Positions 14,053 to 64,000 of a stretch of DNA of 64,000 nt are shown here, piece by piece. The stretch's first letter is position 1; every line of letters starts with the position of its first letter. The stretch is from Paenibacillus mucilaginosus 3016. GTDB lineage: Bacteria; Bacillota; Bacilli; Paenibacillales; NBRC-103111. The position numbers were made by a program, and so were the translations under genes. The DNA is taken from positions 7,768,001 to 7,832,000 of the forward strand of contig NC_016935.1 in assembly GCF_000250655.1 (NCBI RefSeq), read 5' to 3'. Under the pieces are notes generated by a model, which ran no database searches, had not been told where the DNA came from, and saw only the letters and a list, made by a program, of their open reading frames with translations.

Positions 14053-15382
14053 CTACTGCTTGTTCTTCCACTCCAGCAGAATTTCTTTGTCGCGGCCGAG
14101 CCGCTTCTCGATCTCCTTCCGGACTTCCTCCAGAAGCGCCTTCGAGTCCTGGTCCGCCTCTACGCCCTTCACGATCGCTTGAGACCAGATGGCCTGCGCT
14201 TTCTTGTCCAGCGGAGTCACTGTCCGCTCCTTCATCCGCCCGGCCAGCTCTTCGAACAGGGCGTACGTCCGCTGGCCGCCCAGGTACGCGTTGACCCGCT
14301 CCAGCTCAACCGGATTCCCACGAGCCGGCAGGTAAGCGGGAATGGAGCCGCCCATGCCGTCCTTGCTCGCCACCGTTACCGAATGCTCGATGAACTTCCA
14401 GGCCTCCGCCTTATGCCTGCCTTGGGAAGGCAGGAGGAAGCTCGAGGAATTCTCGAATCCGTACAGCCCGAACGGCAGGCGGGCAGCCCGCCACTTCCCC
14501 TCGAGCTCCGGGGCCCACGCCTGAATCTGGTCCGCCCCCCAGGTGCCGAGATACATCATGGCGATCCGGCCGCTGCGTACGGCCTTCTCCCCCACCTCGG
14601 TCCACACATCCACATTGGCGTCCAAGCCCCTGTGGTTCACTTCCTTCGCCAGATCAAGCGCACGTTCGAACTCGGCGCTGCTGCGCTGGAAGTTCAGATT
14701 CCGGTCAAACAGAGGCGTACTCGCTTCAAAGAACCGAATCAGTTCATTATCCCATTGGGTGATGTAACTGCCGTGCTTCAGCAGCTCCTCGCCCATGGCC
14801 AGCCAATTGGCCGGGTCCTCCATGAACGTCCCGAGCGCTTCCGGCTCATCCGGGAACCCGTACGCCTTGAGCAGGTCCGCGCGGTAATAGGTGAGCGACG
14901 GTGCCGTTGCCAGCGGCAGGGGCGATCAGCCTTCCGCCGTCCAGCGAGAGCATGCTGTCCCACATCGCCGGGCTGAACCCGGCTTGATAGCGGCCCGCAT
15001 CGTATGGGGGGGACAGCAGATTCTCCACCCCTTCGATGGCTCCGAACTCACCCAGATGCGCGCTGTCCACCATCAGGATGTCCGGAGCCGTCCCGTCAGC
15101 GAGCGCGGCCAGGTATTTCTGCGAGTATTCGGCGAACGGATGGACCTCCACCTTGATGTCAATCTCCGGATAATGCCGGCGGAAGCCTGCGATCGTCGCG
15201 TCCCAGCCGTTCGGGTAATACGTCCACATCGTGAGCTCGACCGGCCCCTGGGAGACGGCCGGCGAATCGGCAGGCGGGGCCGGGAGCGGAGGATCCGCAG
15301 GTTGGCTGCATCCCGCCAGCACAGCCAGACAGAACGCAGGGAGCGCCGCCGTGAAGCGGCGGAATAGGTCGGAAGCTTTCAT
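14053..15382 (-). CDS. Extracellular solute-binding lipoprotein, sugar ABC type (frameshifted)
   Basis: As one gene this gives about 442 aa, normal for family 1 sugar-binding proteins. The N-terminus has a lipoprotein signal with lipobox LAVLAGC, then a mature part starting VELTMWTYYPNGWDATIAGF. The frame breaks near 14920-14930 at CCCC: 15382-14846 ends early, and 14823-14053 continues with the rest. Dropping one C restores a reading in ALPLATAPSLTYYRADLL; the span is 3n+1. AAGGAGA precedes the start. No permease or ATPase genes follow. It lies 44 bp behind the GGDEF-EAL gene, so it may supply ligand sensing for that protein rather than transport. Confidence 0.88.
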
Positions 15383-15426: not shown

Positions 15427-18119
15427 TTACTGCCGCACCATCAGCGGCTCTCTGCGGGCCACCAGCTGTGCGAACTCCGGGACGGGCAGCGGACGGCTGA
15501 AATAATACCCCTGCAGCTCGTCGCATCCCTGCTCCACAAAGAAATCGACCTCGCCCTGCGTTTCGATCCCCTCCGCCACCACGCGCATCCGCATGCTGTG
15601 CGCAAGCTCGATAATCGCCTGGACGACCGCAGCCTTCTTCCGGTCCGCTTCGATGTTCTCGATGAACGAGCGGTCCAGCTTCACATGATGAATCGGCAGA
15701 TGGAGCAGCTGGCTCAAAGAAGAATAGCCCGTCCCGAAGTCGTCGATCGAAATCTGCACACCGAGATCCTTGATCTGCTCGATGGTCCCGATGACGCTGT
15801 CGACATTCTTGATGAACACCCCTTCGGTCAGCTCCAGCGAGATGTAGCGCGATTCCAGACCGGTTTCGTTCAGAATGCTCCGAAGCTTGCCGGCCAGGTC
15901 GCCTTCTTCAAAATGCCGGGCCGAGATGTTCACGGCCACCGGCAGGGCGGGCAGCCCTTCATCCTGCCAGGCCTTGTTCTGGCGGCACGCTTCCCTCAGC
16001 ACCCACCGGTCAATCTCAAGAATGAGGCCCGATTCCTCCGCCTGCGGAATGAAGCGGTCCGGCGGGACCGCGCCGAGCTCCGGATGCTGCCACCGGATGA
16101 GCGCCTCCATCCCGCAGATCCGCCCGGTAGCTCCGCAGACCTTCGGCTGATAGTGCAGCCGGAACTGCCTCTGCTGCAGCGCCTCCCGGATGCCCGTATC
16201 CATCCGCAGCTTCTCCGCGGCCCCCTCCTGCAGCGGTTCGTCGAAGAACCGGATGCGGCAGCCCCCCTGCTCCTTGGCATGGTACATCGCCATATCCGCA
16301 TTCCGCACGATCGTATCCATATCCCGGCCGTCCCGCGGGAAGAGGGACACGCCGAGACTGGTCGTGACATAGACCGGGGTTCCCTGCAGCACGACCGGCT
16401 CCTCGAACGAAGCGAAGAGCCGCTCAGCCTGCCGGCGGAGCAGAGCTTCATCCGATCCCTCCGCGACCAGGACGAACTCGTCGCCGCCCAGCCGGAATAC
16501 CCGGGAGCCGGCCGGCGCATGCGCCACGAACCGGCTTGCGGCCACCTGAAGCAGCTCGTCTCCCGCCGCATGGCCGAGTGTGTCGTTGATCTGCTTGAAG
16601 CGGTTGAGGTCCGCGAATAGTACGCTTGCCGGACGCTCCGCAGCATCCTCCCGCTCCATGAGCTCCCGCAGGTAGCTCATGAAATACAAGCGGTTCGGCA
16701 GCCCTGTCAGCGCGTCGTAATAAGCGAGACGATGAAGCTTCTCTTCCGAGCTGCGCAGCTGCCCGGCCTGCTCCTCCAATCGCGCGTTGATCCGCTGCGA
16801 TTCCTGGAACATGCGGCTGAGATTGTGCGACATTTCCCTGAAGTTGAAGATGAGATGGTGGAACTCCGAGATCCGGCTGCTCGGCCATTCGACGGCCTGT
16901 CCTTCCTGCAGCTTCCGGGGCAGTCCCGTAGTCGCTTCCGTCAGCTGAAAGACAGCCCGCATCAGCACTCGCCGAAGGAAAACGGACACGAGCGTGATAC
17001 AGGCGACGAACAAGAAGAGAAACCGGAACTGTTCCTTGTATTCCCCGAACACCTGGCTCTGGTAAGCCGACGTCGGCACCTCAATATACAGGTGGAACGG
17101 AAGCGGCTCAAGCTGCTGCACGAGCACGAAGCCGCCCTCCTGCCACTGCTGCGCCGGGAGACGGCCGGACTGCGGCTGGGACAAACGGAGGAAGAACCGC
17201 TCCCCAAGCGGTACGGTCCTGTGCTCCTCCTGCCACCGGAAGACCTGGCGGGACACCACACCGTCGCCGTTGCCTGCAAGAATGCGCCCGTCCGGATTCG
17301 TGATAATGATCTGGAACAGCGTTTCCGACGTATGCTTGTCCACCAGATCCTGCAGACGCCCGAGCTGGACCACGCCCATCAACCGGACCCCGGTCAGGTC
17401 CTCCTGCTCCCACTGCTTCAGTTCCTGGATCAAGCTGTTCGCGGTATTGACCGCAAGTCCTCTGGAGCTCCGAACCGCGGCATCGTAGGACGACCAGGAA
17501 TTTACCACCATATAGAGCATGTAGGGAAGCACCAGTCCGCCGAGGGTCAGGTGGACGAACAGCTGACCGAGCGACAGAATGCCCTCCGGTTCTCTGCAGG
17601 CACCGATGCCTGCAGGGTACAGCACACTGCGGATGAGCAGATCCGCCGCCAGGGCATTGAATACGCCGTTTGTAATCGAGAACATCAGAATCGGCACCAG
17701 CAGGCTTTCCCCCGCCCCATACCCCACGTCCCGGCCCAGTAGGTCAAGGGCAGCCCGACTGCAATCCAGTAGACAAAATCCCACCGCGCCAGATTGGCTC
17801 TTCCCTTGCCGGAGAAGAGTCCGAGGAACAGCACTTCCAGCATCAGCACACCGGCTTCATAGACCGGACCTCCGAACCAGAGCCCTGCGGCCCCCGCCGT
17901 CGCTCCCGCGGCAAGCCCCGCCCACAGGCCGAAGAGACGAAGGGCGGTCAAGAGAAAGAGGCTCGCAGCCGACAGGGAGATCCCATACACCAGCTGCAGC
18001 TCCCAGGCGGCTCCAAGCACCGCGAGAAGCAGACAGGCCAGGAAGAGGAACAATTTCCTCTTCCTGCCCCCGCCTCTCCCCTTTGCCTGAGGATTTCTAT
18101 GTAATTCACCGCTATTCAT
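15427..18119 (-). CDS. Membrane GGDEF-EAL protein, cyclic-di-GMP turnover (frameshifted)
   Basis: About 897 aa if repaired. An N-terminal block of several membrane helices (from RKRKLFLFLACLLLAVLG) is followed by an extracellular sensor region (VVNSWSSYDAAVRSSRGL to about LPFHLYIEVP), another membrane segment (FRFLFLFVACITLVSVFL), a coiled stretch, GGDEF (ADLNRFKQINDTLGHAAGDE, FRLGGDEFVLV) and EAL (GMEALIRWQHPELG, IDDFGTGYSSLSQL, VAEGIETQGE). Both active-site motifs are intact, so either cyclase or phosphodiesterase activity is possible. The frame breaks near 17700-17720 in a G-rich stretch; the span is 3n+2, which suggests one missing base. AAAGGAGA precedes the ATG at 18119. A cyclic-di-GMP riboswitch precedes the gene. 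Confidence 0.92.
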
Positions 18120-24198: not shown

Positions 24199-24206
24199 CG
24201 ATAAAT

Positions 24207-24225
24207 GATAATGATAATTATTATC
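24207..24225 (+). promoter_or_regulatory. Fur box
   Basis: GATAATGATAATTATTATC matches the 19-bp Fur consensus GATAATGATAATCATTATC at 18 of 19 positions. Confidence 0.95.
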
Positions 24226-24269
24226 GATGAATACATAGCAGTCACTACCTATCAAAGGAGCCCTCCGTC

Positions 24270-34763: not shown

Positions 34764-35132
34764 ATGAAGGATTCGCTCATTTGGCTGGCTTTTGCCGCCG
34801 TGTGCCTGGTGTTATATATCGTCAACCGGATCTACCGCAGAACGGGACGTCTCGGCCAGGCGACGCGGGAGCTCCGGCGGCTGACCGGCCGTGTGCGGGA
34901 AGGACAGGCTTCCGCCGGGGACCTCGGCGAGTGGGACCGGTGGCTGCCGCAGCTTGAGAGCTACCCGTCGGATTACAATCAGCTCAATCAGGATATTGAT
35001 TTTACGGGAGCGTTCACAGCCTTCCTGCAGCAGTATTATCCGCAGGACCCCAGGCTGCCCGCCTTGGCGGAAGCGGCCCGTCATAAGAAGGATACGATCT
35101 GGGGGATCAAAATCCCGGGGGACAAACGATGA
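34764..35132 (+). CDS. Small protein with one N-terminal membrane helix
   Basis: 122 aa from the ATG at 34764 (AAGGTGA upstream). A single membrane helix (LIWLAFAAVCLVLYIVN) is followed by a basic segment and a soluble helical domain (DYNQLNQDIDFTGAFTAF). Its stop overlaps the start of the next gene (ATGA at 35129), so the two are translationally coupled. No family recognised. Confidence 0.75.
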   Translation: MKDSLIWLAFAAVCLVLYIVNRIYRRTGRLGQATRELRRLTGRVREGQASAGDLGEWDRWLPQLESYPSDYNQLNQDIDFTGAFTAFLQQYYPQDPRLPALAEAARHKKDTIWGIKIPGDKR

Positions 35133-36150
35133 AGCTCAGCGTTCTCGATCTTGTCCCTGTCCTGCAGGGTGCCGATAACGCCGGGGCGCTGGGGCAGGCG
35201 CTGCGGCTCGCGCGGACGGCTGAGACCCTCGGCTACCACCGCTACTGGGCGGCCGAGCATCACGACCTGCCGGGCCTCGCCTGCACGGCGCCCGAGGTGC
35301 TTCTTGCGCATATCGGCGCACAGACGCAGTCGATCCGCCTGGGCACCGGCGCGCTGCTCCTGCCCCATTACAAAGCGATGAAGGTCGCCGAGACGTTCCA
35401 TATGCTCGCCGCCCTCTATCCGGGGCGCATTGATCTCGGTCTCGGCCGGGCCCCCGGCGGGTCCGCCCACGCGGCGATTGCGCTCAGCGGCAACTTCCTG
35501 GAGGGCGTCCGGCAGCTTCCGGACACTCTCCGCAGCCTGCTGCAGCTGCTCGAAGGCACCTTCCGTGTAGAGAACGAGCCGGTCACGGCGAGGCCGATGC
35601 CCGGCATTCCGCCGGAGGTCTGGCTGCTCGGCACGAACCGCAAGAGCGCGGAGCTCGCCGCCGAGCACGGGACCGGCTACGTCTTCGGCCAGTTCATGAG
35701 CGACCAGGATGCGGGGCAGACGCTGGACGCGTACCGGCAGGCCTACCGTCCCTCGGGGCGTGCTCCCCGGCCGAGGTCCATCGTGGCCGTCGGCGTGGTG
35801 TGCGCCGAGACGGAGGTCGAGGCCCGGCGCCTGGCCGCCGAAGGGCGGAAGGCGTTCCGGCCCGAGGCCGGTGAGGCCGGGCGGGCGCAGACGGAAGCCG
35901 GCGGCCGCTTGGCGGGCGAGGGCGCTGAGGCGTCGGGCGCGGAGCGGCCGGCCGGCCTTGAGGCGCCCGGCGAGCCCGAGGCGGCGGAGGGCGCAGGCTG
36001 CTGGCCGGCACGCCACAGCAGGTGAAGGCCCGGCTCGAGGCCATGGCGGCGGAATACGGTGTGGACGAGTTCCTCGTCGTCACACCGGTTTCGCACTATG
36101 GGCAGCGGCTGCGCTCCTACGAGCTGCTGGCGCAGGCGGTTCTGACATAG
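35129..36150 (+). CDS. LLM class flavin-dependent oxidoreductase (frameshifted)
   Basis: About 340 aa if repaired. The start MKLSVLDLVPVLQGADNAGA and the motifs YWAAEHHDLPGLACTAPEV and IDLGLGRAPGGS are typical of the bacterial luciferase-like single-component group (YhbW-like), which use FMN. The frame is open to 36025, but the real C-terminus reads in another frame: LLAGTPQQVKARLEAMAAEY through ELLAQAVLT, stop at 36148-36150. The break lies near 35985-36000. The segment before it (about residues 245-290) is unusually rich in Glu/Ala/Gly. The span is 3n+2. Confidence 0.85.
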
Positions 36151-56008: not shown

Positions 56009-56858
56009 ATGAGCCAATCCCTCGCCGTCCTGATTGTCCATGGAATGGGACAGCAAAAAGAAGAATATGCCGACGAACTGAAAGAGCAGCTGGCCGATGC
56101 CTATCGGCTGCGGTCGGAAGATCCGGAAGCCTCCACCCACTTGTGCATGGAGGCCGTTCAGTGGTCCCATGTGTTCGAGTCCGGAGAACAGGAACTTTTC
56201 GAACGGCTCGTCCGCCGGCATGATCTGCGGTACCAGGGCCTGCGCCGGTTCATTATCCACTATCTGGCGGATGCCATCGCCTACCAGCCGGTGGAGACCG
56301 CCGAGCATAACTATGACGCGGTCCACCATACGATCAGCGGGGCGCTCCGGCGGCTGTCGGAGCGCTGCGGTCCGGCCGCCCCGCTCTGCGTGATCGCCCA
56401 CAGTCTCGGCGCGGTCATTGCCAGCAACTACTTTTATGATCTTCAGTATGAAGTGAGGCAGCCTGCCGCCGAGTGCGAACACCCCGTTGGAATGCGGGGA
56501 TACGCTGGCCCTGTTCTATTCCATGGGTACGACGCTGCCGCTGTGGAGCCTGAGGTACCGGAATTTCAACCGCCCCATTGCGGTCCCGTCGCGTGGACTG
56601 CACAGCCGCTATCCCGCCGTGGACGGCGAATGGGTCAACTTCTACGACAAGGACGATATTCTCGGCTACCCGCTGCGAAGCATCGACCCAGCCTACGAAG
56701 AAGCTGTGCGGGAGGATTACGAGGTGCGGATCAGCGACTGGCTCCGGGGGTGGAACCCGCTGTGCCACAGCGAGTACCTGAGAAGCCCCGAGGTGATCGG
56801 CCGCATGGCGGACGGGCTCGCGCAGACCTGGCGCGCGGTGCACGGTGGGCGAGTGTAG
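56009..56858 (+). CDS. Alpha/beta hydrolase-like protein (frameshifted)
   Basis: About 282 aa if repaired. The N-terminus LAVLIVHGMGQQKEEYADEL and the nucleophile elbow LCVIAHSLGAVIASN (Ser in GHSLG-like motif) indicate a hydrolase of the lipase/serine-esterase type. The frame is open from 56009, but after about 56485 the proper reading continues in another frame (ECGDTLALFYSMGTTLPLWS to HGGRV, stop at 56856-56858). The break lies near the CACCCC at 56478-56484; the span is 3n+1. Confidence 0.8.
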
Positions 56859-57960: not shown

Positions 57961-58803
57961 CTAAACGCCGGCCATGACCGGAAGCTCCTCGCGAAGCCAC
58001 TGCATCTCTTCGGCGAGCACACGGGCGGGATCGGGACCGAACCATTCGAGGGAGGCATAGTGATCCGTCTCGCGGATCGCCTCCAGGATCGGCCGGTAGT
58101 CAACCACGCCTTCGCGGAGCGGAACCATGCCGGTCCGGCTGCCGCTCGGGGCATACACATTATGAGGGGCGAAGACACCAAGGTGACTCCGGTCGGTAAT
58201 GTTCTTCATATGGTAGTGCATCACCCAAGGCTCCAGCTTCTTGAGGCCTTCGACCGGATCGGTTCCCCCTTCCCAGACATGCAGGAAGTCGAGGTTGATC
58301 TTCAGCGCGGGATGATTCACCATCCGCAGCAGATCGAGCGCCGACTCCACCGTGTCGGTGAGGGTGCCGGGGTGCATTTCGAGCAGCAGGTACACGCCCT
58401 GCTCCCCGCACAGCTCGCACAAGCGGTGCAGGTTCTCCGCGTACAGCGGGCGCTCCTCGGCCGGAACGTCCCGGCTGCCGAGCTGCCCGGCGAACGTGCG
58501 GACGCGCGGGGTGCCGAACCAGCGGGCGAGCGAGATCAGGCGCTGGCACTTGTCCAGCACCGCCTGGCGGTCCGCCTGGGGCGAGATGTCCAGATAATCG
58601 CTGACCATGGAGATCCCCATGCCGGAGGCATGCAGCCGCTGCAGGTGATCCCACGCCGTGACGCGTTCATTCTCGTACAGCTGCTGGGCATGGGTCCCCC
58701 ACAGCTCGATCCCGTCGAACTGCAGGCGGGAAGCCAGCCGGACCAGGTCGCCGAAGGAGACGAGCTGGTGGCGGAACGAAATCGTGCAGAGGGAGGTTTT
58801 CAT
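57961..58803 (-). CDS. asbF: 3-dehydroshikimate dehydratase AsbF (petrobactin)
   Basis: 280 aa from the ATG at 58803; open frame upstream is noise. The start KTSLCTISFRHQLVSFGDLV, then FDGIELWGTHAQQLYENE, MVSDYLDISPQADR and HYASLEWFGPDPA match B. anthracis AsbF closely. It turns 3-dehydroshikimate into 3,4-dihydroxybenzoate, the catechol of petrobactin; metal ligands sit in the Glu/Asp/His strands. It is the last gene of the operon; four bases separate its ATG from the stop of the repaired upstream frame. Confidence 0.95.
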   Translation of the reverse strand: MKTSLCTISFRHQLVSFGDLVRLASRLQFDGIELWGTHAQQLYENERVTAWDHLQRLHASGMGISMVSDYLDISPQADRQAVLDKCQRLISLARWFGTPRVRTFAGQLGSRDVPAEERPLYAENLHRLCELCGEQGVYLLLEMHPGTLTDTVESALDLLRMVNHPALKINLDFLHVWEGGTDPVEGLKKLEPWVMHYHMKNITDRSHLGVFAPHNVYAPSGSRTGMVPLREGVVDYRPILEAIRETDHYASLEWFGPDPARVLAEEMQWLREELPVMAGV

Positions 58804-58807
58804 AACG

Positions 58808-61196
58808 TCACACCTTTCCTGTAGTAAGCTCCGCTCCGGCCGCCGTAGTGGCGAAGTGTGCAATGTACGGCCGGCACAGCGGCATCCATGCCTCGTAAGG
58901 CGTCTCGCTCCGCGAAGCCAGAAGCGACAGCGGCGTCTGCGAAGCGAAGACGCCGGAGCGCACGGCCGGCGTGTACAGCGCCGGCGAGTCGGCCAGCGGC
59001 CGCTGGAACACAGCAGCGCCTGTGGCCGGTCCGCCCGCTGGCGCGCACTGCAGGCCGGGGCCTGCGGCACGGCCATCGCGCAGCGCGGCCTCCCGCTCCG
59101 CCAGCCGTGCGGACCAGCTGCGGCATAACCTGCGCCGGCGCATAGCGCCCGAGCCCGGCCAGGGCCTCCGCGCGCATCGCCGCAAGGCGCGGTTCGTCCT
59201 GCAGCAGGCCGAGCAGCTTGGCGGATGCTTCCGCCGGGTCGATCTGCGGGCACGGCCCGGACCAGTCGACGCCGACCAGTACGGCGTCCCGGCCATCCGT
59301 CACGAGCTCGCGGAAGCCGTCCCACGCGGTGCAGAGCACCGGCAGGCCCCAGGCCTTGGCCTCGATCAGGTTGTAGCCGAACGTCTCGCCGGGATCGGTC
59401 GAGAAGTTCAGAAGCACGTCGGCCGAGCGGAACAGGGCGTCCTTGGCCTCACCCGACACCGGTCCGGTGAAGGTCACGCTGTCCTGCAGGCCGTACGCCT
59501 CCACCTTCTCCTCCAGGAGAGAGCGGTAGGCAGCGATCTGCTCCGGCGTGCGGCCCGTGTATTCCCCGGCAATGTTCAGATGCACGTGCGGGAAGGCTTC
59601 TCTTACCGCATGGAACACGTCCAGCAGTACGTGAACGTTCTTCACGTCCTCCAGCCGGCCCATGCAGAGCAGCTGCTTCACGCGGTTCGCCTCCGTTCGC
59701 AGCGGCTTGGCAGGCTCCGTGCGGATGCACAGCGGAGCCCGGAAGGCCTCTGCGTAAGCCGGCGACAGCGCCAGGAGCGCCTCCTTCGCCGTATCCGTCG
59801 CGCAGAGCAGCGTATCTCCCTCCCGCAGCAGCGGCGCCATGGCCAGCCACTGCTTCATCCACCACTCGGAGCCGACCGAGTGGGCGAGGAAGAAGAGATT
59901 CAGCGGCACCTCCGCGCGGCCCCGGGCCAGCATCAGGTACGGGATCAGCGGCGTCAGATTCGCATATAGCGTGCTCACGCCGTACTGTGCGCAGAGATCC
60001 GCCAAGGCCTGACCCTTCGCTTCCGCCTTCGCGAGGAAGCCCGCCGGGTCCCTCGACGGATCGCCGCCGGCCCATTTCATGAGCTTCAGCGGAGGGATCG
60101 GCACGAGCTCGGCATACTCGCCCAGCGCGCCGACCCACTCGCTGTCGATCGCCCGCTCGTTGACCCGTCCGGCCTGGCCGCCGATATAGCCGATGCGCAG
60201 CCCGCTAGACATGGCCCACCCGGCCGGCTCGGCCGCTCGGCCCTCCATTGCTGCGCACCACAGGCCGAACTGGCGCTGCAGCTCGCCTTTGATACGGAAT
60301 TCGATCTCATCCGCCTTGTCGATCGTCTCGAAGAGCTGGGGAAGGATCGACCTGCGGCCGGTCATGGACAGCTTGACCGCCAGATATTGGGCGTGGTTAA
60401 ACGCACTCACCAGGTCACGGATCTCCTGGCACCAGTCTTCATAATTCTGCTTCGGCAGCTTCAGCGTGTCGTCGAAGAACATCAGGGCATAGTCATAGCT
60501 GTACTTGCGGATCACCAGAATATTGAGCTGCTTCACCGCACGGGTCAGCAATGGAAGGTCCCATCCGTGGTTTCCTTCCGCCATATCCATGACCAGCCGG
60601 CGCAGACGTGAGACCAGTTCATTGTCCTCCGGATGGAACGTCGTCACAAAATGGTCTCGGATCGTCTCGAACGAAGGCTCCTGCACGGTCTCGGCATCCA
60701 CATAAAAGCCACCGCCGAACTCGTTGCCGAGGATCGCTTCGATCACCCGGTCCCGGCTCACATTCCCCTCCCACCGGAAGTCGGGATCGAACATGAACCA
60801 CTCATCCTCCTTCTCGGTCTTCGAGATCATGAGGTAGTGGGGAAACGGCTTCTGCTGGAACTTGTTCTCCCGCTCCGGCATCAGCGACATGTCGATCTGC
60901 ACGATGAGGTACCGGTGCTCCGGCTTGTTCTCGAGCAGCTCCAGGAACACCTCCAGGTTCTCCTCCCGGCTTCGGGCGGCATCGTACCACTCGTGCACCT
61001 TCAGCCCGAAAAACTGTTCGTAGGTGTTCAGGAAGGCATCATGCCCGATCCGGTCCGAGAAATAGGTGATCTCCCCTTCGTCCGTAATGTCGAAGTCGGA
61101 ATCCCATATTCCGAAATAGTAGGACCGGTAATCAACGCTGCTGCGCCGTTTGACGATCTCGCAGAGGCAGGAGATCAGGCAGTGGACCTTGATCAT
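58808..61196 (-). CDS. asbE: AsbE-type petrobactin condensing protein fused to a GT4 glycosyltransferase (frameshift near the end)
   Basis: About 795 aa if one base near 59118-59125 is removed. Residues 1-328 (start KVHCLISCLCEIVKRRSSVD) cover the normal full length of AsbE, which passes 3,4-dihydroxybenzoate from AsbD to the spermidine arms of petrobactin. Without a stop, a GT4-type glycosyltransferase follows from M329 (60212): SGLRIGYIGGQAGRVNERA, a VKQLLCMGRLEDVKNVHVLL nucleotide-sugar region, and the EX7E motif ETFGYNLIEAKAWGLPVL. After VMPQLVR the frame shifts; the good reading (LAEREAALRDGRAAG to TTGKV) ends at 58808. No ribosome binding site precedes M329, so the fusion looks real. 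ATG overlaps the asbD stop (ATGA). Glycosylation of the siderophore is inference. Confidence 0.87.
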
Positions 61197-61477
61197 ACGC
61201 CCTGCCCCGCCGCATCCAGCGGCCGCAGCTCCGCCATGAAGTCCAGCAGTGCGCCGACCGTATCCAACCCCTTGAAGTCCAGCTCCTCCTCGGGCACCGC
61301 CAGCTTCAGTTCTTCTTCTATGTACACGATCAGCTGCAGCAGCCGTACCGAATCCACATAGAGATCCGCATTCAGCTTCAGCGAATCGTCCAGGGTCTCC
61401 CGCTTCGCCGCTTCCGGCAGCTCCAGGTTCTCCGTCAGCAGGCGCTTCAGTCCTTCTCTTAATTCCTCGCGGTTCAT
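61193..61477 (-). CDS. asbD: Aryl carrier protein AsbD (petrobactin)
   Basis: 94 aa carrier protein. The phosphopantetheine serine is in DLYVDSVRLLQLI. It carries the activated 3,4-dihydroxybenzoate. Its ATG overlaps the asbC stop and its stop overlaps the asbE start, both as ATGA, so expression is translationally coupled. Confidence 0.93.
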   Translation of the reverse strand: MNREELREGLKRLLTENLELPEAAKRETLDDSLKLNADLYVDSVRLLQLIVYIEEELKLAVPEEELDFKGLDTVGALLDFMAELRPLDAAGQGV

Positions 61478-62727
61478 TGGGTCGCATCCTCCATTTCCAG
61501 CCGTTTGCGGCTGATCTTGCCTGTCGGGTTCTTCGGTATGGCCGTTACGAATTCAATGTCCGCCGGCACCTTGTAAGCGGGCAGCCGCTGCAGGCACACA
61601 TCCCGCACATCGTCGGCGGAGACCCGTCCGGACGCTACGATCCGGGCTTTGACGATCTCGCCCATCACCGGATGGCGGCCCCGGTACACGACCGCTTCAG
61701 CCACTCCCGGCATGCCGAGCAGCACCTCTTCGACCTCGAGCGGAAAGACTTTGAGCCCCGATACATTGATGACGTCATCGATCCGCGACAGCAGGTGAAT
61801 ATGCCCGGAAGGGGCAATATAGCCAAGGTCGCCGGTCGCAATGCGTCCGGCCCTGCCGGTAACGGCCAGCTCCGACGGCTGTGCCTCCTCCCGGCTGTCC
61901 AGCTCGAGCTTCCAGTGCCGCAGCGGCAGCCCCATATCCGTCGCGGCTTCCATCCGCGGGGAGATCGAGATGCAGCCCGCCTCCGAGCAGCCGTACTGCT
62001 GCAGCAGCGTGTCCGCGAGCCCGCTGAGCCTCTCGAACAGCGGGGCCGGCATCGGCGCGCCGGAGGTCATCAGCTTGTGGAACCGCAGCCCTTCCTGGCT
62101 GAAGCCCGTCAGCATGTGGAACAGGGTCGGCACGCCGTACACCAAGTGCTTAGGCGTATCGCGGATGACGCTCAGCGCGAACTTCGGGTTCTTGTTGGTC
62201 ACGATCACGGGGCTCACGCCCCGCTCGAGGGTCGCCAGTACGCCGCACAGGAGCCCGTAGGAGTGCGTCACCGACGCAAGCACCACAGGCGTCTCACCGG
62301 CATCGGCGGGAATGGCCTCGTTGTAGGCGGCGATTTCTTCCGCCACCGCGCTCCAGGAGCGGCGGATGAGCTTGGCTCCGCCCGTCGTGCCGGAGCTGAA
62401 GCTGTAGAGCGACGGCTCCTCTTGGGCCGCCGGCGTCCCCGGCAGCACCTGGCACTGCTCCGGCGTACCGATGACGAGCGCATAAGCTCCCGCCTGGCGT
62501 GCCGAGGCCAAGGCGGTCTCGAGCGGCGTATCGGCGGCCAGCAGCAGCACCGAGCCGCCACGCTCGCGCAGGAAGAGCACGAGCGTGACCACGTCGGCCG
62601 GGGAGCTCAGGCACAGCGCATAGAGCCGGCCCTCCGGGCTGCGAAAATGCTCCAGCGCCCCGTATGCATCGAGGCGCACGCGGGCATCCGATGCTGAGAA
62701 GCGTTCACGGTTCACGGTAAACATCAT
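61474..62727 (-). CDS. asbC: 3,4-dihydroxybenzoate-AMP ligase AsbC (petrobactin)
   Basis: 417 aa from the ATG at 62727 or 62724; the GTG at 62745 lies within the AAAAGGAGG ribosome binding site, so it is not the start. Adenylation motifs: LYSFSSGTTGGAKLIRRSW, QYGCSEAGCISIS, IATGDLGYIAPSGHIHLLSR and the C-terminal Lys in NPTGKISRKRLE. It activates 3,4-dihydroxybenzoate and loads AsbD. Confidence 0.94.
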   Translation of the reverse strand: MMFTVNRERFSASDARVRLDAYGALEHFRSPEGRLYALCLSSPADVVTLVLFLRERGGSVLLLAADTPLETALASARQAGAYALVIGTPEQCQVLPGTPAAQEEPSLYSFSSGTTGGAKLIRRSWSAVAEEIAAYNEAIPADAGETPVVLASVTHSYGLLCGVLATLERGVSPVIVTNKNPKFALSVIRDTPKHLVYGVPTLFHMLTGFSQEGLRFHKLMTSGAPMPAPLFERLSGLADTLLQQYGCSEAGCISISPRMEAATDMGLPLRHWKLELDSREEAQPSELAVTGRAGRIATGDLGYIAPSGHIHLLSRIDDVINVSGLKVFPLEVEEVLLGMPGVAEAVVYRGRHPVMGEIVKARIVASGRVSADDVRDVCLQRLPAYKVPADIEFVTAIPKNPTGKISRKRLEMEDATQ

Positions 62728-62802
62728 GTTCCTCCTTTTGGACAAAGTGGACTGTATGGTTAGGTTGAAAAGGTTGGAAGTAAGGAAAGGCTCGACTGCA
62801 GA

Positions 62803-64000
62803 TCAGACGCCTGCCGTCTGCAGTTCCGCGCCGGCCTTCTCACGTTCCCGCACATGATACAGGGGATTCGGCACGTCATGACTGCAGCCCCCCCGCTCTT
62901 CGGCAGGAACCAGCCGGCGCTTCGTCAGCTGCTCGACCCGGGTCTCCGGCACGAACAGGTCCAGCGTCCGGAACCGCTCCTCGTACTGCGGGAAACGGAT
63001 GCGGTAGCTCTCCAGCAGATCCGCCGCCAGCGTCCAGAAGCGAGTCTCCTCATAGCCGTACCGGTCCGCCAGCGTCAGCGCCAGCTCCCCGAGATTGATG
63101 AAGAACAGCGCGCCGAGCGTCAGCCCCCGCACGGTAGAGAGGCTGCCCGCCTCGAACGAGGTGCCGGGTCCTGCATTCCGGTAAATCTCGTGTACCGCCG
63201 GGAAGTCCGGACAGCGCTCCGGCTCCCGCAGGAAGTCGCGGGTATAGAGCACATCCTCGTGAAAATCCTTCAGTGCCGCCCGGACCGGCATGCCGCCCCG
63301 GTGCACCAGCACCATGTTCTGCGCATGCGATTCGAGCGCGATGCCGTGGGCCACCGCCAGGTGGACGACCGGCAGCACGCACGTCTTGAACAGCCGGCGC
63401 AGCCAGCTCTCGACGCCGATGGACTCCAGCCACGGAGCGATGAACAGCGACCCGTCCAGCTCCCGCGAGCACAGGGCATGGAACGGCACGGCCTCCTCAC
63501 CCGGCTCCAGGTAACGGTGTACGCTCTCGCGCCAGATGCAGCCGAGCGAGCCTGCCGAGCCGCCCGTCCGCGCGCCGTCTCCGGCTTCGACCGGAGGGTC
63601 GTACGACACCCCGGCGAACTCGCCGAGCAGGATCAGCTTCGTCTCCTCCCGCAGGTACGGGTCGGAGGCGGCAATGCCCTTCAGCCAGCCGGTAATCGGC
63701 GGAGCGGTCACGACGAAGTGCGGAAGCAGCTCCCGCGACGAGGACGTATTGATGAGGTCCATCGACAGCTTCGCGTAGGCTTTGCGCGGGTTCGTGCGGT
63801 TCGACAGCGTACGGATCGACTGCTGGGGCACGTACAGATCTCCGGCCGTCCCGAGCGGAACGATCCGCCCGTCACGGATATCCCGGAAGAACCGGCCGGC
63901 CGTGTGCCGGCGCCACTGCCACGGATGTACCGGCAGGAACACGTATGCCTCCGGTGTATAACCCTGCTTCCGCAGCTCCGTGCGGAAGGTCTCCAGCTGG
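62803..64000 (-). CDS. asbB: AsbB-like NIS siderophore synthetase (IucA/IucC family, partial)
   Basis: The C-terminal 400 or so residues are in the window; the gene continues beyond 64000. Family motifs: VFLPVHPWQW, then QQSIRTLSNRTNPRKAYAKL with the ATP-binding Arg/Lys, HGIALESHAQNMVLV and LKDFHEDVLY. NRPS-independent synthetases condense citrate with amines; AsbA and AsbB attach spermidine arms in petrobactin. I assign AsbB because it directly precedes asbC, as in B. anthracis, but AsbA cannot be excluded without the upstream gene. Confidence 0.88.
   Translation of the reverse strand, partial: QLETFRTELRKQGYTPEAYVFLPVHPWQWRRHTAGRFFRDIRDGRIVPLGTAGDLYVPQQSIRTLSNRTNPRKAYAKLSMDLINTSSSRELLPHFVVTAPPITGWLKGIAASDPYLREETKLILLGEFAGVSYDPPVEAGDGARTGGSAGSLGCIWRESVHRYLEPGEEAVPFHALCSRELDGSLFIAPWLESIGVESWLRRLFKTCVLPVVHLAVAHGIALESHAQNMVLVHRGGMPVRAALKDFHEDVLYTRDFLREPERCPDFPAVHEIYRNAGPGTSFEAGSLSTVRGLTLGALFFINLGELALTLADRYGYEETRFWTLAADLLESYRIRFPQYEERFRTLDLFVPETRVEQLTKRRLVPAEERGGCSHDVPNPLYHVREREKAGAELQTAGV

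Follow-up and report, generated by a model that had tools for sequence, protein, structure and literature searches.

A single open reading frame that runs from a siderophore biosynthesis gene into a glycosyltransferase (GT) raises two questions, i.e., whether both activities are carried by one enzyme and what a glycosyltransferase contributes to an operon of the petrobactin type. Such a frame lies on the minus strand of the window, the 64,000-nucleotide stretch of Paenibacillus mucilaginosus 3016 analysed here, whose genome is assembled as a single contig of 8,739,048 bases. The open reading frame listing and translation give 798 uninterrupted codons at 58800-61196, with asbB (truncated by the window end), asbC, asbD and asbF as neighbours on the same strand. 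The Pfam profile search assigns residues 1-322 to DUF6005/AsbE (E 6e-141) and residues 505-673 to Glycos_transf_1 (E 4e-25; 88.9 bits against a cut-off of 26.4), while all GT4 models above their cut-offs together span residues 505-679; the GT itself starts at residue 329 (60212). The preliminary description had placed a complete AsbE in the first 328 residues, followed by a GT4 domain with an EX7E motif, and both assignments hold, with PF19468 matched over 1-322/327 at 470 bits, Glycos_transf_1 above its cut-off and the two glutamates in place. The features are listed below, with the nearest relative, locus L028 of Paenibacillus caseinilyticus GW78 (the same genome as G064; 91% identity to the window in the best segment), as reference.

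62803..64000, minus strand: asbB, IucA/IucC-type siderophore synthetase, continuing past the window end (PF04183, E 1e-49; PF06276, E 4e-33)
61474..62745, minus strand: asbC, AMP-dependent aryl ligase (AMP-binding domains; acyl-CoA synthetase model NF006167 above cut-off)
61193..61477, minus strand: asbD, aryl carrier protein (PF00550; top NCBIfam match AsbD NF005798, 91.9 bits, slightly under the cut-off of 100)
60213..61196, minus strand: asbE (DUF6005), residues 1-328 of the open frame (PF19468; 95% identity to L028 asbE)
60205..60212, minus strand: ATGTCTAG, GT start codon overlapping an asbE stop of the L028 type, the stop being out of frame in the window
59115..60212, minus strand: conserved core of the GT4 glycosyltransferase, in the asbE frame (PF00534, PF13692; among 25 collected relatives)
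59361..59387, minus strand: EX7E motif of the GT4 domain, glutamates at residues 604 and 612
58811..59035, minus strand: conserved C-terminal tail of the GT, in a frame that differs from that of the core (ORF 58808-59296; 83% identity to the L028 tail)
57961..58803, minus strand: asbF, 3-dehydroshikimate dehydratase-like TIM barrel (PF01261, E 7e-36; 95% identity to L028 asbF)

In L028, asbE ends with its own stop codon and the GT gene begins with its own ATG in another frame, the two genes overlapping by the eight bases ATGTCTAG. The identical eight bases are found in the window at 60205-60212, and they also form the overlap between the E and GT genes of two further clusters, L083 and L084. 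Across the 18 neighbouring E-GT pairs compared (L028 and 17 other clusters), the two genes lie in different frames in every case, each pair has an ATG as candidate GT start within the E gene, and none reads AsbE and GT in a single frame (0/18). The fused enzyme proposed earlier, which was to be sought in other AsbE homologues and would have been contradicted by a stop between the two genes in a related genome, is thus not a family trait, because such a stop separates asbE from the GT gene in the nearest genome; as a family trait it is ruled out by the separate frames of all 18 pairs. What survives of that proposal is the single open frame of 798 residues, not its interpretation as a fusion. 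Judged against its relatives, the apparent fusion in the window is a shifted reading frame rather than a conserved AsbE-GT fusion.

The organization in the relatives points to asbE and the GT gene normally being two overlapping, translationally coupled genes. A small length difference just 5' of the GT start would have brought them into one frame, and a further length difference 3' of the catalytic core would have put the tail of the GT out of frame. The open frame departs from the GT at about residue 695, and the GT tail is found instead in ORF 58808-59296; this conserved tail (pattern W..KPII.HFA and variants) ends the other 24 GTs aligned. The GT of the window strain as sequenced, without its conserved tail, may be inactive. 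A true strain- or species-specific fusion, with AsbE and GT activities on one polypeptide, would account for 798 open codons that contain complete AsbE and GT cores, yet we regard it as very unlikely: none of the 18 neighbouring pairs shares one frame, the stop/start overlap of the relatives is still present in the window DNA, the conserved tail is missing from the same open frame, and further genes of the window are also split between frames.

These further splits emerged when 46 frames of the sister genome were compared with the window. Matches of at least 70% identity were obtained for 29, at least one of which is an antisense frame; six of the 29 are split over two frames in the window, at five distinct places, one of the six being a repeat that arises from the overlap of L028 and L134, through which some genes are counted twice. 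Six splits at five places suggest an indel-prone assembly. Genes split relative to the sister genome lie at window positions 56009-56846, 35129-36141, 15430-18002 and 14056-15367, suggesting indel errors or pseudogenes. It appears likely from this comparison that assembly errors lie behind the frame breaks in the window, with mutation as the alternative, and some of the splits could be real or located in the sister genome. The two frame changes of interest, before the GT start and after the GT core, most likely stem from errors in the assembly or from recent mutation.

Selection on the coding sequence indicates that the GT gene is not an accident of the reading frame. The dN/dS ratio of the window relative to L028 is 0.124 in the GT core, compared with 0.056 for asbE, 0.053 for asbF, 0.046 for the window part of asbB, 0.110 for asbC and 0.232 for asbD; the GT tail, when translated in its own frame, gives 0.364 (74 codons). 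These values indicate that constraint acted on the GT during much of the time since the two species diverged, less clearly so on its tail. Both glutamates of the EX7E motif are invariant in the 16 relatives aligned, a set separate from the window sequence, and the GT is placed between asbE and asbF in both P. mucilaginosus and P. caseinilyticus. A chance open frame is ruled out for the GT, since its core is homologous to other GTs and under selection. The coupled GT of the operon is real and has been kept in two species. Its acceptor is not indicated by the search of solved structures, which returned general GT4 enzymes only, the structures nearest the family profile being 2jjm/3mbo (E 5e-15 to 6e-15) and PimA (E about 1e-14).

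The distribution of the GT was surveyed alongside that of DUF6005. Relatives at E 1e-30 or better occur in 24 of 392 genomes sampled from the order. The 25 GTs collected comprise those of the window and L028, 18 from DUF6005 clusters without asbA and asbB, and five without a clear DUF6005 gene (L102-L106, of which L106 has one weak, 32-bit DUF6005 match). All of them except L100 (24/25) have an AsbF-like gene within the fetched stretch. Counts were made over 55 loci, i.e., the DUF6005 matches together with L028 and L029, minus a weak fragment in G242 and minus L101, which had no match in the frame scan and a DUF6005 score under the family cut-off; asbA, asbB and asbE were counted from stop-to-stop frames because greedy gene calling lost some overlapping genes. 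The GT is carried by only two of the 32 loci with asbA, asbB and asbE, namely those of the window genome and L028, so most such operons dispense with it, and by 18 of the 23 DUF6005 loci without asbA and asbB (it is absent from L042, L044, L045, L046 and L099). It lies immediately 3' of the DUF6005 gene in 17 of these 18 loci and adjoins the AsbF-like gene in L096. At E 1e-60, with at most four candidates scored per genome, relatives were found in 5 of 398 genomes of the class sample, including the window genome and one already known, and in the window genome only (1/348) of the phylum sample; because of this limit on candidates, absence at the class and phylum levels carries little weight. 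Three more distant relatives from another family of the class (L114-L116) have no asbA, asbB, asbE or asbF matches around them. By the measure of these searches, the GT is a member of a narrow GT4 family.

This distribution bears on whether the GT belongs to the pathway. Its absence from 30 of the 32 comparable loci and the free-standing position of the three distant relatives could be taken to mean that it is a passenger of the operon, glycosylating something unrelated to the siderophore. We consider this unlikely, since the gene overlaps asbE in L028, is conserved between two species and is repeatedly co-located with DUF6005 and AsbF-like genes across different cluster types. The preliminary description had GT and AsbE working jointly. 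Its fused enzyme is no trait of the family, given the stop in the nearest genome; the tie between the GT and the 3,4-dihydroxybenzoate pathway has gained support, since two species keep the GT between asbE and asbF and since its relatives in other clusters adjoin DUF6005 genes and have AsbF-like genes nearby.

The phylogenies bear on the history of this association. In the AsbE tree, the 31 asb-type sequences fall on one side of a branch with 100/100 support, and the DUF6005 proteins of L083 and L084 are their sister, a placement that depends on midpoint rooting and carries a long-branch warning. In the GT tree, which carries the same warning, the GTs of the window and L028 are sister to those of L083 and L084 (100/97). 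Together with the shared ATGTCTAG junction, the sister placement suggests that the GT arrived together with an E-GT pair resembling that of L083/L084, or was derived from one. The same observations, namely the two sister relationships and the junction common to L083/L084, L028 and the window, could also mean that AsbE was ancestrally paired with the GT, which most asb operons then lost, instead of the GT being gained by this lineage; this would be compatible with the other readings. We hold this to be possible but rather doubtful: the window AsbE is nested within the asb group, so that retention requires several independent losses and a single gain is simpler, and the long branches leave both joins unsure.

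The clusters that pair DUF6005 with the GT outside siderophore synthetase operons (L043, L083-L098 and L100) form a family unmatched to a known one. They carry AsbC- and AsbD-like genes, DUF6005 and GT4, with an AsbF-like gene in all but L100; several seem to have a second ligase and an ABC exporter, and some apparently have Gfo/Idh/MocA and DegT genes. In L106, two full AMP ligases are accompanied by a third protein that matches the AMP-binding model alone; the cluster also encodes an ABC exporter and, besides the GT and an AsbF-like protein, a Gfo/Idh/MocA oxidoreductase and a DegT-type aminotransferase, and similar-looking oxidoreductase and aminotransferase genes were recognized by eye in the translations of L096, L100 and L102. 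This gene content suggests that such clusters make sugar-bearing 3,4-dihydroxybenzoyl compounds, for which the Gfo/Idh/MocA and DegT genes of some could supply an amino sugar. Other DUF6005 loci show variations of their own: a UDPGT/EryCIII-type glycosyltransferase lies about 5 kb from a DUF6005 cluster without GT4 (L042:2570-3763), the DUF6005 gene is in two pieces at L046:8914-9934, and longer-than-usual DUF6005 frames with no separate AsbD match, possibly real asbD-asbE fusions of the kind reported for other asb clusters, occur at L035:8221-9720, L070:7895-9292 and L071:8189-9439. A broader reading, which we offer tentatively and hold at somewhat below even chances, is that an old, translationally coupled pair of an AsbE-type aroyl transferase and a GT4 enzyme yields glycosylated 3,4-dihydroxybenzoyl compounds in uncharacterised Bacillota clusters and, in P. 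mucilaginosus and P. caseinilyticus, a glycosylated mixed siderophore from a hybrid catecholate-hydroxamate-citrate operon.

The hybrid nature of the operon becomes apparent upstream of asbB, where L117:6429-11845 forms one gene run with window positions 57961-64000. The complete order is diaminobutyrate aminotransferase, putative diaminobutyrate decarboxylase, asbA, N-acetyltransferase, N-hydroxylase, MFS exporter, asbB, asbC, asbD, asbE, GT4 and asbF, with asbA and asbB both encoding IucA/IucC synthetases according to Pfam. The aminotransferase, 5' of asbA, scores 796 bits with NF005393 (cut-off 671), and the decarboxylase, also 5' of asbA, has RhbB as its top family at 460 bits, under the cut-off of 900. 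Between asbA and asbB, the N-hydroxylase is of the lysine/ornithine type (PF13434, 409 bits; top NCBIfam match histamine N-monooxygenase, 517 bits, under the cut-off of 700), and the acetyltransferase is IucB-like (PF13523, 174 bits; every NCBIfam match under cut-off). The latter two genes are present in 17 of the 32 asb loci, and all 17 also have both diaminobutyrate genes, which occur in none of the 13 plain asb loci whose stretches reach at least 2.3 kb beyond asbA (the plain loci L033 and L034, short contigs of one genome, are outside these 13). Three Fur-box-like sites (0.01 expected) precede the first gene, two of them overlapping and close to it and the other about 1 kb farther upstream, so the operon looks iron-regulated. 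Two overlapping Fur-box-like sites also lie at window positions 24206-24226, where 0.07 matches are expected by chance.

The earlier name of petrobactin operon is therefore justified in that asbA-F are all there, but it is too narrow because genes resembling a diaminopropane hydroxamate pathway are part of the same operon. Plain petrobactin, the product that the antiSMASH label would imply, could be argued from the complete set of six asb genes and from the cluster of P. mucilaginosus G78, given as 83% similar to petrobactin in the consulted part of PMC9956331. It seems an improbable product, however, of a gene run that also contains a diaminobutyrate aminotransferase, a decarboxylase, an N-hydroxylase and an acetyltransferase, which recur jointly in all 17 loci having the last two. 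The gene content predicts a mixed catecholate/hydroxamate citrate siderophore instead.

From the observed gene content, order, frames and conservation, we infer the following chemical steps. AsbF, held responsible for 3,4-dihydroxybenzoate synthesis in the part of PMC5596346 consulted, would produce this compound, with which AsbC would charge AsbD. A diamine or polyamine would then receive the AsbD-bound aroyl group through AsbE, acting as a papain-like, BtrH-like enzyme; the consulted part of PMC10318531 describes DUF6005, which serves as the AsbE model in the portion of PMC11317620 seen, as papain-like and possibly siderophore-related by genomic context, and assigns BtrH_N, an ACP acyltransferase domain, to the same superfamily. 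AsbA and AsbB would couple the 3,4-dihydroxybenzoyl arm and an N-acetyl-N-hydroxy-diaminopropane arm to citrate, and the GT would glycosylate either the dihydroxybenzoyl unit or the completed siderophore. The expected product, citrate bearing one arm of each kind, is inferred from the chemistry of rhizobactin and schizokinen. Altogether, we think it rather probable that the operon directs the synthesis of a citrate siderophore joining petrobactin-type and schizokinen/rhizobactin-type chemistry, that asbE and the GT gene are normally coupled overlapping genes whose frame changes in the window are errors or recent mutations, and that the GT acts in glycosylation. The siderophore predicted for the P. 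mucilaginosus/P. caseinilyticus lineage would probably be glycosylated.

Among the literature matches listed, seen as titles and abstract starts, there is no description of a glycosylated petrobactin, of an asb/diaminopropane hybrid operon or of a coupled GT in a hybrid siderophore operon. If the proposed reading is true, asb operons are more varied than the petrobactin label implies: a mixed catecholate/hydroxamate siderophore would be the product of 17 of the 32 sampled loci, and in one soil lineage it would bear a sugar. The same reading would offer an initial clue to those DUF6005-GT clusters that lack siderophore synthetases. The locus further cautions that a fusion seen in one genome needs comparison with a sister genome.

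The operon shares features with several known systems. Petrobactin is a symmetrical spermidine siderophore whose asbABCDEF operon is not known to contain hydroxamate or diaminopropane genes. The window operon has asbA-F in the same order but departs from that definition by adding four diaminopropane-hydroxamate-like genes, an MFS gene and the GT4 gene between asbE and asbF. With the rhizobactin 1021 and schizokinen operons, for which the rhbABCDEF gene names and siderophore chemistry are the reference, it shares the diaminobutyrate aminotransferase, a putative RhbB-like decarboxylase, the acetyltransferase, the N-hydroxylase and two NIS synthetases, and differs by the added asbC-F 3,4-dihydroxybenzoate genes and the GT. 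Salmochelin, to which the IroB C-glucosyltransferase contributes the sugar, provides the notion of a sugar-bearing catecholate siderophore, yet IroB belongs to another GT family. No UDPGT/GT1-type domain is among the Pfam matches of the window protein at E 0.01, which rules out IroB-like C-glucosylation as judged by family membership. The BtrH/butirosin-type ACP acyltransferase clusters are related through DUF6005 and BtrH_N, both counted among papain-like proteins in the consulted part of PMC10318531, and L102-L106 pair the GT with ligases and proteins that look BtrH-like by eye only, the one in L106 having no match in the Pfam search. Finally, the methylolanthanin and rhodopetrobactin clusters also combine asb homologues with an acetyltransferase and, in the part of PMC11317620 consulted, no GT is mentioned; they contain true fusions of asb genes, mllBC and mllDE, in which the partner of asbE is asbD instead of a GT.
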